Shown: positions 24,316 through 27,874 of the stretch, in pieces
Layout: every line of letters starts with the position of its first letter
How positions within the stretch are numbered: position 1 is the first letter of the stretch
NCBI RefSeq assembly: GCF_002694385.1
Contig: NZ_NZMB01000009.1
Location: 136,429 to 184,630 of the forward strand
Direction of reading: 5' to 3'
DNA length: 48,202 bases
From: Sneathiella sp.
GTDB taxonomy: Bacteria; Pseudomonadota; Alphaproteobacteria; Sneathiellales; Sneathiellaceae
Made by a program: the position numbers and the translations under genes
The notes under the pieces: model-generated
The model's input: only the letters and a program-made list of their open reading frames with translations
What the model was told of the DNA's origin: nothing
Databases searched by the model: none

Positions 24316-24361
24316 TTGCCGCGACTGTCACAAAACTGTAATATAAAATGTATATACATTT
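24316..24361 (+). promoter_or_regulatory. Promoter with perfect 16-bp palindrome, likely operator
   Basis: TTGCCG (24316-24321) and TAATAT (24339-24344) are 17 bases apart. The perfect palindrome AAATGTATATACATTT (24346-24361) falls on the predicted transcription start. It precedes the ribbon-helix-helix type gene by under 50 bases, which fits autorepression by that protein. Confidence 0.55.
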
Positions 24362-24408
24362 GATATGCATTCCTTATAGTCAGGATGATGCAACGGAGCA
24401 GCAAGGCG

Positions 24409-24594
24409 ATGGCGGCAGAGAAGAAGCAGAAGAAGAAAGAGCGGAAAGACAGCCAGTTGATTATTCGCATAAAAGGCAAGGAACGGGACCGTTTCGTCAA
24501 ATTATGTGACGAGCTGGACACCAGCGCCGCCCGCGAGATCCGGCGGTTCATCCGTGATTTTCTGCAACAGCATGCCCCTCAGGAAAAAGTCTAG
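24409..24594 (+). CDS. Small ribbon-helix-helix-like protein
   Basis: A 61-residue basic protein. After a very Lys-rich start (MAAEKKQKKKERKD) comes a strand QLIIRI, a helix KERDRFVKLCDELDTS and a second helix AAREIRRFIRDFLQQH, the order and spacing of Arc/CopG-type ribbon-helix-helix DNA-binding proteins. In-frame ATGs exist at 24385 and 24388; 24409 is chosen for GGAG/AAGG upstream. A perfect palindrome lies just before the gene. It is not a recognised toxin-antitoxin antidote, as no toxin gene follows. Its neighbours are two more Lys-rich small proteins. The RHH assignment is by pattern only. Confidence 0.6.
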   Translation: MAAEKKQKKKERKDSQLIIRIKGKERDRFVKLCDELDTSAAREIRRFIRDFLQQHAPQEKV

Positions 24595-24636
24595 CTGCCC
24601 GGCATATTCCATCAACTGAACGAATGAGGACATATC

Positions 24637-24756
24637 ATGGCCAAAAAAACGAAAATCAAGGAACTGAAGAAGGAAGTGAAGCTCCGTAAGGGGAAAGTCG
24701 CCCAGCAGGAGCAGAAGCTGAAAAAAGCGAAAAAGGCGCTCAAAAAAGCGGCCTGA
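24637..24756 (+). CDS. 39-residue Lys/Ala-rich peptide
   Basis: A short open frame starting MAKKTKIKELKKEVKLRKG and ending KKALKKAA. GAGGA sits six bases before the ATG, and a strong terminator follows the stop by 15 bases, so it looks like a genuine gene. About 40 per cent of residues are Lys, with regularly placed Leu, Val and Ala that would make an amphipathic helix or short coiled coil. It lies 42 bases after the ribbon-helix-helix type gene. The family is not recognised; nucleic-acid binding is plausible from composition only. Confidence 0.6.
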   Translation: MAKKTKIKELKKEVKLRKGKVAQQEQKLKKAKKALKKAA

Positions 24757-24770
24757 GCGTCTCAATGGAC

Positions 24771-24797
24771 AAGGCTGGCCAAGCGCCAGCCTTTTTT
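24771..24797 (+). terminator. Rho-independent terminator after the 39-residue gene
   Basis: AAGGCTGG (24771-24778), loop CCAAGCG, CCAGCCTT (24786-24793), then a run of T to 24797. A textbook intrinsic terminator, 26 bases before the next start codon. Confidence 0.85.
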
Positions 24798-24822
24798 ACC
24801 CCGGTTCAAGGACATCATACAC

Positions 24823-25308
24823 ATGCTGACGATATATGACGTAAAGGGGATTGGTCCGACAACGGGCACAGGCCTCACCGATAAAGGCATCACCACTGCC
24901 GAGCAGCTTGCCAATTCCGACGTTGCCGACCTTCTCGCCGTTCCCGGCATTGGGGAGGCTCGCGCCGCTCTCCTGATCGCCGCGGCGAAGGACGCCCTTA
25001 CCCCCGCGCCGGCCTCTCCGGTTGCGGCCACATCGAAGGCGGTTCCCGCCGCGATCCCGGCTTCCGAGACAGACGCCGAAACGGCGACGGCAAAAATGCC
25101 GGAAAAAATGCCAAAGGCCAAAAGGGCTGACAAAGCCGGCAAGGTGAAAGCCACTAAAAAGACGAAGGAGGGCAAACCGTCCAAAAAGAAGGAAAAGGCG
25201 AAAACCGCGAAAAAAGCCGAGAAGAAAGCGGCCAAGAAGGACAGCAAGAAAACGGCCAAAAAAGACGCAAAATCAAAGAAAAAGAGCAAATCGGGCAAGA
25301 AGAAATAA
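24823..25308 (+). CDS. Helix-hairpin-helix protein with histone H1-like Lys/Ala tail
   Basis: A 161-residue protein in two parts. Residues 1-60 hold tandem helix-hairpin-helix units (YDVKGIGPTTGTGL and LLAVPGIGEARAALLI), which bind DNA non-specifically. An Ala/Pro linker follows, and from about 95 to the end the chain is dominated by Lys and Ala (KKAEKKAAKKD and similar), like histone H1 C-termini and bacterial H1-like nucleoid proteins. It probably binds or compacts DNA. AAGGA lies upstream of the ATG, rather far at 11 bases. It is the third of three consecutive basic genes, but separated from the second by a terminator. Confidence 0.75.
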   Translation: MLTIYDVKGIGPTTGTGLTDKGITTAEQLANSDVADLLAVPGIGEARAALLIAAAKDALTPAPASPVAATSKAVPAAIPASETDAETATAKMPEKMPKAKRADKAGKVKATKKTKEGKPSKKKEKAKTAKKAEKKAAKKDSKKTAKKDAKSKKKSKSGKKK

Positions 25309-26065: not shown

Positions 26066-26848
26066 CTAGATTTTCGGCTTGGCCGCGCCTGACTTTTTGG
26101 CCAGATCTTCGCGCGCTTTGCGGGAGAGCTCTTCCATCCAGCTCATGACGTTGATTTCATTCTTGGCCGCTGCTGCCACGTCAAGAACGCCGCCCGAGGC
26201 CTTGACCACCGGATCCCCTTCCAGCCGGTATTCCAGGACAATGGCGCAATCTTCGATGCTTTCCGCCCCAGGCAGCTTCATACTGCCGTCGTCATTGCGA
26301 ATTTCCTTCACAATACTTCTCTGAAGGGTGACATCCACTTTAACTCGCGGACCGGGCTGGAGAGGGGCAGGCTTGCAATTGACCTTGTCCTCCCCGAGAT
26401 ACCATTGGACGAACATGAAATTCGACTTGGGGTCTGTCGCCATCAACGATGGATCGCCATATTTATCAGTCAGCGCTTCCAGATAAACCGCGCGGTCGAT
26501 CGGCGCATCCTTGATCCGCTGTATTCGCTCCGCGGCCAGCACCTTGGGTTCATCCGGCGGTGCCGCAAAGGTGACGATAAACTGGTCCACCCGATGCGGC
26601 GCAGTCGTGATCATACGGACATAATCCTCCGTACGCAGCTTCTTCACCCCGTCAGTATAATTCATGTAATACTGGGTGTAGTTGAGTTTCAGTTCGGAAT
26701 TATAGTCTGCAATAGCCTCTTCCGCCTCTTCGACCGACATGCCGAGAGCGACCCCGGCGACATCAATTTCATCGGCATGTGCGGCAAAAGACGGCATCAT
26801 GAACAGGGACGCCAGCAGGGCATTTCGAAAAAAAGAGTTCTTTTTCAC
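26066..26848 (-). CDS. Secreted protein of unknown function, paralogue of 27030-27773
   Basis: A 260-residue protein beginning with GTG (26848), with AGAGG five bases upstream. The signal peptide runs to about AAHA before DEIDVAG. The mature start VAGVALGMSVEEAEEAI resembles the first strand and helix of SmpA/OmlA-type small periplasmic folds. Two cysteines, in DKVNC and EDCAIVLEYRL, are shared in context with the next gene and could form a disulfide. The C-terminus is charged. The family is not recognised. It lies on the same strand as its paralogue, with a 181-base gap. Confidence 0.7.
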   Translation of the reverse strand: MKKNSFFRNALLASLFMMPSFAAHADEIDVAGVALGMSVEEAEEAIADYNSELKLNYTQYYMNYTDGVKKLRTEDYVRMITTAPHRVDQFIVTFAAPPDEPKVLAAERIQRIKDAPIDRAVYLEALTDKYGDPSLMATDPKSNFMFVQWYLGEDKVNCKPAPLQPGPRVKVDVTLQRSIVKEIRNDDGSMKLPGAESIEDCAIVLEYRLEGDPVVKASGGVLDVAAAAKNEINVMSWMEELSRKAREDLAKKSGAAKPKI

Positions 26849-27029: not shown

Positions 27030-27773
27030 CTATTGTTGCCCCCCTTCTCTCAACGCCAGTTCATCCCGCGCCACGGCGGCCGCATCGGCAAGCCGGACCT
27101 CGACCTTGTTAAGCGGATCCTGAAACAGCCGGTATTCAAGCACGATACCGCAATCATCCAGAGAGGCCGCCGCGTTATTGATCATTTTCCCTTCCGGCGT
27201 CCGGATCGTCCCGAGGAAAGGCTGCATGACAATGCCGCTGATATGATAGGGAACGGTATTCTTGTTCTCGCTGTATTTGAGGCAGTTCACCTTGCCTTCC
27301 TCCAGCACCCAGTAGAGGTAAAGAATGTGATTTTTCATCCCCATTCTTTCATAATCCGGCTTTCCATGCCGGGCGACCAGCGTTTCAAAATACTGGCCGC
27401 GCGGGGGCCGGTTCGTGCCGATATTCTCCACCCGCTGGATATAAGTCGCCTGTTCGCCGGTGGCCGAAAAATTGACGGTCACCACGCCCTTTTGCGATCG
27501 GCCGATCAACGTGCTGACCCTGTTTCCATCAATTTGCCCCTTGCTGTTCCAATGACGGAACATCTGGCCATAGAGGATCGATTGACTGAGCGGCGTTTTC
27601 TGAATGGCGACTTTATGGTCAGCCGATGCAAAGGTCGCCTCCACCTCCGCAACCGCCATGCCAAGCTTGACCCCGTCAATTGATGGAGCATCGGCACGCG
27701 CCTTCGGGGTGATTACCGGCAGGAAAGACACTGCGATCAGCAGCAGAAACATCAGGCTCCGACGAAATGTCAT
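27030..27773 (-). CDS. Secreted protein of unknown function, paralogue of 26066-26848
   Basis: A 247-residue protein with signal peptide MTFRRSLMFLLLIAVSFLPV, cleaved before about ADAPS. The mature start IDGVKLGMAVAEVEATF and the pair GKVNC and DDCGIVLEYRLFQDP line up with the neighbouring gene, so the two are diverged duplicates. Overall similarity is low outside these blocks. An in-frame TTG at 27785 lies too near GGAGG; the ATG at 27773 is chosen although its spacing from that site is long (13 bases). Function unknown; periplasmic location inferred. Confidence 0.68.
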   Translation of the reverse strand: MTFRRSLMFLLLIAVSFLPVITPKARADAPSIDGVKLGMAVAEVEATFASADHKVAIQKTPLSQSILYGQMFRHWNSKGQIDGNRVSTLIGRSQKGVVTVNFSATGEQATYIQRVENIGTNRPPRGQYFETLVARHGKPDYERMGMKNHILYLYWVLEEGKVNCLKYSENKNTVPYHISGIVMQPFLGTIRTPEGKMINNAAASLDDCGIVLEYRLFQDPLNKVEVRLADAAAVARDELALREGGQQ

Positions 27774-27874
27774 GACGGGCTTCAAACCTCCATTTTATTT
27801 TTCACAGTTTTTTCAATAGACTGCTATCCTAACGGCAATGGATGACGGCATCAATTACAGACGGAATAAATGAC

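Follow-up and report, generated by a model that had tools for sequence, protein, structure and literature searches.

A conserved, very probably autoregulated operon of small basic proteins in Sneathiella that may bind polyphosphate or DNA

A short locus in a Sneathiella genome encodes, behind a conserved operator, a ribbon-helix-helix (RHH)-like protein, a strongly basic protein of 39 residues (p39) and an HhH protein with a histone H1-like tail. We propose, with a probability of roughly one half, that the locus is an operon that represses itself and supplies small basic proteins able to bind polyphosphate (polyP) and/or DNA, in the manner of AlgP of P. aeruginosa. Comparison between genomes establishes the gene order, the conservation of the operator, coding selection on p39 and the gene neighbourhood, and the genes found beside some relatives suggest a role connected with phosphate or polyP.

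Results

Layout of the locus

The window, by which we mean the whole stretch of 48,202 nucleotides that was analysed, is part of a 3.6-Mb genome (G000). The original prediction, made from the letters alone, described three small basic genes in a row, a palindrome in front of them and a hairpin after the second gene; all these elements were found in the sequence (Table 1), and the feature that was noticed is real and conserved. The palindrome had been placed over the transcription start; instead it overlaps the predicted -35 of the first of two equal, weak promoter-like matches returned by a promoter scan. A TATACT/TATAGT element recurs at the promoter position in most Sneathiella loci, as read by eye. 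The mechanical open reading frame of the RHH gene begins at 24385, but the start given in the table is likelier because two related loci (L007 and L008) begin at the equivalent codon and offer no ATG further upstream in the same frame.

Table 1. Coordinates of the predicted features of the locus within the window.
Feature	Position	Strand	Remarks
Operator core, perfect palindrome AAATGTATATACATTT	24346–24361		Conserved part TGTATATACA at 24349–24358, nearly invariant GTATATAC
Second, weaker operator half-site TGATATGC	24361–24368		11 bp downstream; family consensus GnATnTnC at +12 to +19
Weak sigma-70-like promoter match, TATACA-16 nt-TATAGT	24353–24380	+	9/12 match; overlaps operator
RHH protein, 61 aa	24409–24594	+	Lys-rich N-terminal arm, then ribbon-helix-helix-like core
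p39, 39 aa	24637–24756	+	41% Lys, net charge +14, predicted single helix, heptad coiled-coil pattern
Intrinsic-terminator-like hairpin AAGGCTGGC-CAAGC-GCCAGCCTT with T-run	24771–24797	+	Folding and comparison among Sneathiella loci
HhH (HHH_5) protein, 161 aa	24823–25308	+	101-residue Lys/Ala-rich histone H1-like tail

A tandem operator accompanies the RHH gene

A palindrome of this kind is by itself unsurprising, as the window holds four perfect palindromes of at least 16 bp against about 1.4 expected from 30 Markov windows, and what argues for a functional site is its conservation. The core TGTATATACA lies upstream of the RHH gene in all nine Sneathiella loci and in G046, a genome of another family. 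An exact copy is found within 350 bp upstream of the gene in 62 of the 80 best relatives, and when up to one mismatch is allowed within 260 nt, the core precedes 79 of 85 RHH loci (66 exact), a set made up of the 80 best relatives, four plasmid loci and one prophage-like locus. In G254, G113 and G115 the site is ~1.1 kb upstream, before the gene for an HExxH protein that precedes RHH.

Comparison of 52 non-redundant upstream regions, with pairwise differences at 24 or more of 80 bases, showed that GTATATAC is nearly invariant, that a second block, G.AT.T.C, is clear at +12 to +19 (0.5–0.95 bits at +12, +14, +15, +17 and +19) and that a fainter third block lies upstream of GTATATAC. The palindrome of the original prediction does not stand alone and is part of a tandem array with an 11-bp period. 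RHH dimers on successive helical turns would need an 11-bp repeat. Four or more of the five block letters, scored on the better strand, are present at 43 of 52 RHH sites versus 2 of 52 other TGTATATACA sites, a contrast that is somewhat inflated because the block consensus was defined on the RHH sites themselves. A conserved, symmetric and tandem operator at the gene's own promoter, kept upstream of RHH relatives, is what marks an autoregulated RHH operon, and at this comparative level the autoregulation foreseen in the original prediction is borne out: RHH very probably regulates its own operon.

Counted over the whole genome, each of 21 RHH carriers has 1–9 exact TGTATATACA sites, against 0–2 for a reversed-pattern control. 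We clustered the ORFs flanking the non-RHH sites in 17 genomes; the largest clusters, which were given names by eye, comprise hut-type genes and pairs of the MarR/MATE-like kind, and several further clusters span only two or three genomes. A small regulon around TGTATATACA may therefore exist. A search of the literature for this string returned, among the matches listed, no title or abstract start that concerned this operator.

Several other sites were noted along the way. The window's own genome has two copies of TGTATATACA, and the second (L030:1501–1510) lies between genes for a MarR-like regulator and a MATE-like transporter, both assigned by eye; in G003 and G008, too, a site is found close to a member of this transporter family (L145 and L154). 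Longer TTGTATATACAA palindromes are found near hut-type and other genes (L142, L144, L147, L149, L152, L153, L155 and L160–L163), and these are perhaps a HutC-like operator that shares its core with the RHH operator. In G046 and G069, sites resembling TTGTATATACAGT(A/C)TTGACC are located upstream of homologous genes (L158 and L166). The longest palindrome of the window is a perfect 20-bp TGATCTGATGCATCAGATCA at 2921–2940.

The RHH protein is only weakly assigned to a family

The window protein scores 18.2 bits against Pfam RHH_9 (PF19839), below the cut-off of 23.4, and the same model matches 22 of 25 RHH members at E up to 0.1, with a best value of 1.2e-4. PHROG searches matched an Arc-like repressor (E 0.015) and PHROG 19878, of unknown function (E 7.8e-7). 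In the AF2 monomer, helices at residues 23–35 and 39–55 follow a QLIIRI stretch, no strand is formed and the pLDDT is 72.6; neither a Foldseek search with this model nor a profile search returned a significant PDB match. The assignment to the RHH fold is therefore weak. Just a few residues extend past the predicted fold, with no evident toxin-binding tail. Two distant RHH-like paralogues are present in the same genome (L002 and L003, 39% and 34% identity); TGTATATACA is found in neither locus, and one of the two adjoins an ORF that looks, by eye, like an integrase.

p39 is a conserved coding gene with a predicted coiled-coil pattern

The substitution pattern among eight sequences (pS 0.62, pN 0.066, dN/dS about 0.05) indicates that p39 evolves as a coding gene; the small frame, like the palindrome, is conserved in relatives. 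The suggestion that the 39-residue product belongs to no known family agrees with our library searches: 28 sequences gave no confident Pfam or NCBIfam family (best stray E-values 9e-4 and 2.4e-3, respectively) and p39 has no match in PADLOC, while the gene itself is conserved well beyond the genus. The predicted structure is one helix with a pLDDT of 92. Across the 28 sequences, heptad a positions 7, 14, 21, 28 and 35 are aliphatic or Ala in 93–100% and d positions 10, 31 and 38 in 89–100%, and the remaining d layers are conserved and polar (Arg17 and Gln/His24). On this modelling p39 is probably a basic coiled coil that forms a coiled-coil oligomer.

With a profile built from the genus (matches at E up to 1e-3), 32 of the 80 best relatives have p39 on the same strand as RHH and no more than ~0.4 kb behind it, or 33 when L056 is added by reading; in L066 p39 is 2.5 kb away. 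The other 47 RHH loci have no nearby p39, and ~30 of them are loci of Ruegeria and other roseobacters, where RHH sits amid ordinary chromosomal genes. Genome samples gave p39 in 4 of 385 alphaproteobacteria, including the own genome and one same-genus relative, and in 5 of 274 gammaproteobacteria, of which 8 carry RHH; three of the five gammaproteobacterial p39 genes are beside RHH and two (G104 and G215) are in genomes without it.

A terminator-like hairpin separates the conserved pair from the HhH gene

The hairpin that had been proposed after the second gene is present as a terminator-like structure. The region folds at z -2.6, and a simple terminator scanner reported no hairpin here. A hairpin of the AAGGCYGGC/GCCRGCCTT type with a run of 4–6 T lies in the gap between p39 and HhH in eight of nine Sneathiella loci; in the ninth (L011) the stem is present and the T-run absent. 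In the window, the HhH gene starts 25 bases past the T-run. Its product is a confident HhH protein by Pfam HHH_5 (E 3.5e-14, 53.5 bits against a cut-off of 27), and Lys and Ala make up 35% and 22% of its last 101 residues. Domain models detected no CHAD domain in either p39 or the HhH protein.

Outside Sneathiella, the HhH gene was found in just two other loci among the 80 best relatives. By this comparison the conserved unit is RHH plus p39, and the HhH gene is a local addition.

The unit is accessory and mobile

We surveyed 60 genomes, the own genome included, among them 23 others of the same genus. RHH was found in the own genome, in 8 of the 23, in G046 and weakly in G039 (the last two from other families), and p39 and the HhH domain in the own genome and the same eight; the weaker p39 rows of this survey fall within longer reading frames and are apparently chance matches. 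The order operator-RHH-p39-HhH is kept in all nine Sneathiella carriers, and G046 has the operator and RHH only. Because 15 of the 23 same-genus genomes (some incomplete) lack all three genes, the locus is accessory in Sneathiella.

A pattern-based scan with the RHH alignment across 84,980 species genomes returned 152 relatives, and we retained the 80 that scored best. These come from Sneathiella, Ruegeria and other roseobacters, Kiloniellaceae, Marinobacterium, Neptuniibacter, Alteromonadaceae and one Desulfobacteraceae metagenome-assembled genome, among others. RHH also matched 15 plasmid records, four of which we examined. Both RHH and p39 are present on two Acinetobacter plasmids, one of which carries BrnTA and a MobQ relaxase, and on a Salinivibrio megaplasmid, p39 having been added by reading in these three loci (L192–L194); a Vibrio megaplasmid (L195) has RHH, and p39 was not found within 350 nt of it. 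In the PLSDB gene table, which is incomplete, p39 is missing from the entries of both Acinetobacter plasmids, and the Salinivibrio plasmid has it within a longer hypothetical CDS.

Two prophage-like IMG/VR contigs also have operator, RHH and p39 together, flanked by tail genes on one side and lysis genes on the other (L261:3958–4310 and L262:3958–4310). PHROG matches back this setting in L261, where the next gene is PHROG 21016, of unknown function. A phage origin was considered and set aside: 50,697 phage records contained no match to the p39 consensus or to RHH, a result to be read knowing that the BLAST low-complexity filter may hide a Lys-rich query. Since two IMG/VR contigs carry the pair and the phage records do not, the module is mobile but is no common phage gene.

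Phosphate and polyphosphate genes near some relatives

Clustering of the ORFs that flank RHH loci revealed no constant partner. Phosphate or polyP genes are near 10 of 91 loci, three of which (L198, L202 and L203) represent one arrangement, and 81 have no such neighbour; some loci were judged on BLAST alone and others also by reading the flanking ORFs. Domain models confirmed PPK2 in L059, L068, L249 and L251, PPX and CHAD in L251 (CHAD PF05235, E 1.4e-19), PhoU in L198, PstS in L058, PstA and PstB in L195 and an Mn-pyrophosphatase in L060. Neighbours identified by BLAST only are a pyrophosphatase-like protein in L064 (35%), PstB and PhoU in L203 and pst genes in L253 and L254. L202, where the contig ends within the PhoU gene, was for that reason added to the count, and two rows were dropped: a PstB-like match in L194, annotated as a glycine-betaine ATPase, and a 33% ABC match in control L209.

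In four lineages, no more than 4 kb separates ppk2 from p39. In G122 a contiguous stretch has a diverging ppx, then RHH-p39-ppk2-CHAD; in G104 a lone p39 without RHH precedes a ppk2 of the same orientation by ~1.06 kb; and in L059 a convergent ppk2 directly follows RHH-p39-HhH. In four Sneathiella genomes (G021, G015, G003 and G017) a convergent ppk2 is 6–11 kb downstream, a single arrangement shared by descent. In G008 and G019 the ppk2 gene is located on a different contig, and PPK2 was not found in G000, the window's own genome, which has PPK1, nor in G001 or the incomplete G010. The scan of the window's proteins revealed no polyP or phosphate-uptake gene, and the genomic association with polyP enzymes concerns a minority of lineages. 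Nearly all genomes with p39 have a PPK (PPK1 in 33 of 38, PPK2 in 29, at least one in 37, the exception being G010, which is 65% complete), and PPKs are common anyway: of 14 well-known genomes taken as controls, 7 have PPK1 and 8 have PPK2.

The same query proteins found nothing in 40 control windows of 20 kb (800 kb from 11 related genomes) save one generic ABC ATPase, and CHAD was confined to its one locus, with no further CHAD gene in the 91 loci or the controls. Fisher tests (10 of 91 loci vs 0 of 100 8-kb equivalents, p 5e-4; 8 of 55 lineages, p 2e-4) and a PPK2 estimate of 4 of about 26 lineages vs 0.07 expected are guides and not proofs, with lineages counted by hand, controls from only 11 genomes and a post hoc category. 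The 10-of-91 contrast is only suggestive, because the case loci themselves supplied the query proteins and the category had been noticed before it was counted.

Some loci with phosphate genes encode a further conserved protein. A ~312-aa protein with a zincin-like HE(I/M)VHWLGH motif is found at L253:6523–7458, L252:891–1832 and L254:6598–7560, with an TGTATATACA operator before its gene, the RHH gene after it and phoU/pst genes beside; searches of Pfam, NCBIfam and PADLOC with the L253 copy found nothing.

Discussion

We envisage that RHH would occupy the tandem operator, which consists of GTATATAC and, a helical turn further, the weaker copy and which covers the -35 and the spacer, and that the bound protein would repress its own gene and p39. 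The p39 protein, as a short, strongly basic helix and probably a coiled-coil oligomer, would bind a polyanion. In Sneathiella, transcription may pass an attenuating terminator into the HhH gene, with the hairpin limiting read-through. Both p39 and the HhH protein would most likely bind polyP and/or tether it to DNA, as AlgP may do. In this scheme we infer the binding, the repression, the oligomer and polyP as the ligand. The polyP part is weakened because plasmid and prophage-like cargo needs no polyP role.

According to the excerpted text of the AlgP study, AlgP is an H1-like basic protein located at polyP granules and needed for their even spacing, its authors speculate that it tethers granules to the chromosome, and few polyP-binding proteins have been validated in bacteria (PMC9239181). 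AlgP is Lys/Ala-rich and in this parallels the HhH protein tail and possibly p39; however, as far as that text describes it, AlgP has 352 aa, KPAA repeats and a helical N-terminal domain, whereas the HhH protein has HHH_5 and p39 is 39 aa long, and the likeness drawn here is one of composition. We take AlgP as the model to work from for the HhH protein, and possibly for p39 as well. CHAD-domain proteins are helical polyP binders (PMC6537752). A CHAD gene belongs to the G122 cluster, but p39 itself does not match CHAD and is predicted to be a single short helix.

The main competitor is a small nucleoid-protein locus, in which DNA would be coated or bridged by p39 and the HhH protein, under RHH autoregulation and with no particular link to polyP. 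DNA is the default polyanion, all three proteins are Lys-rich, the HhH domain and H1-like tail suit such a role, autoregulation fits equally, and no polyP gene was seen near the window locus. A purely nucleoid role leaves the ppk2, ppx, CHAD, pst/phoU and pyrophosphatase neighbours of several lineages unexplained, however, and the HhH protein is missing from nearly all other loci. The three-gene nucleoid locus of the original prediction is thus a live but less probable reading, and its three-gene extent gives way to the RHH-p39 unit. A different regulator at the palindrome, for example a HutC or MarR protein in place of RHH, could be argued from the TGTATATACA cores that some genomes have in front of hut-type genes and beside a MarR/MATE-like pair, and from the hut-type TTGTATATACAA flanks common to 5 of the 80 RHH loci. 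The site nonetheless travels with RHH onto plasmids and prophage-like contigs, it is the sole exact copy in G060, G064 and G067, and the 11-bp repeat is nearly absent at other TGTATATACA sites, so that we regard this as very improbable.

Toxin-antitoxin-like or other selfish cargo, with RHH as antitoxin or repressor and p39 as a small cationic toxin, would suit the plasmids, the position between tail and lysis genes and the patchy distribution of p39. The layout also resembles type II operons with an RHH antitoxin, in which an autoregulator comes first and a small gene second and which have a comparable operator. In contrast to these, the module has no evident antitoxin tail, no toxin family in Pfam or NCBIfam was matched, and each gene also occurs alone, which is odd for a toxin found without RHH in two of five gammaproteobacterial genomes; we consider this reading unlikely. 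The Arc/MetJ/CopG-type repressors are another likeness, being small basic proteins that bind tandem subsites about one turn apart and regulate themselves; the window protein differs in its weak match to RHH_9 only, its conserved Lys-rich N-terminal arm and its partner p39.

Within the preferred explanation, an autorepressed operon for polyP- and/or DNA-binding proteins, a more specific version is a polyP-responsive switch. Here polyP would titrate the Lys-rich arm of RHH, free the tandem operator and induce p39, a minimal coiled-coil polyP binder that would nucleate, coat or space granules, while the HhH/H1-like protein would tie them to the nucleoid. We offer this as a speculation with a low chance of being right. 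At the level of titles and abstracts or abstract starts, we found no paper that pairs a transcription regulator with a polyP-binding protein of such a kind, none that joins an RHH protein to polyP, polyphosphate kinase or phoU in such a role, and none on a bacterial HhH protein with a lysine-rich H1-like tail. If the polyP reading is true, the locus offers a new family of 32–47-aa basic proteins and, for studies of how polyP granules are controlled in cells, a portable two-gene module with its operator. Should polyP play no part, the locus would still be a conserved small-protein operon, apparently autoregulated, of a kind that annotation can miss.

Downstream of the locus, the window also encodes two adjacent exported-looking proteins on the minus strand (26066–26848 and 27030–27785), which have no confident Pfam family, are 260 and 251 aa long and appear by eye to be related to each other.
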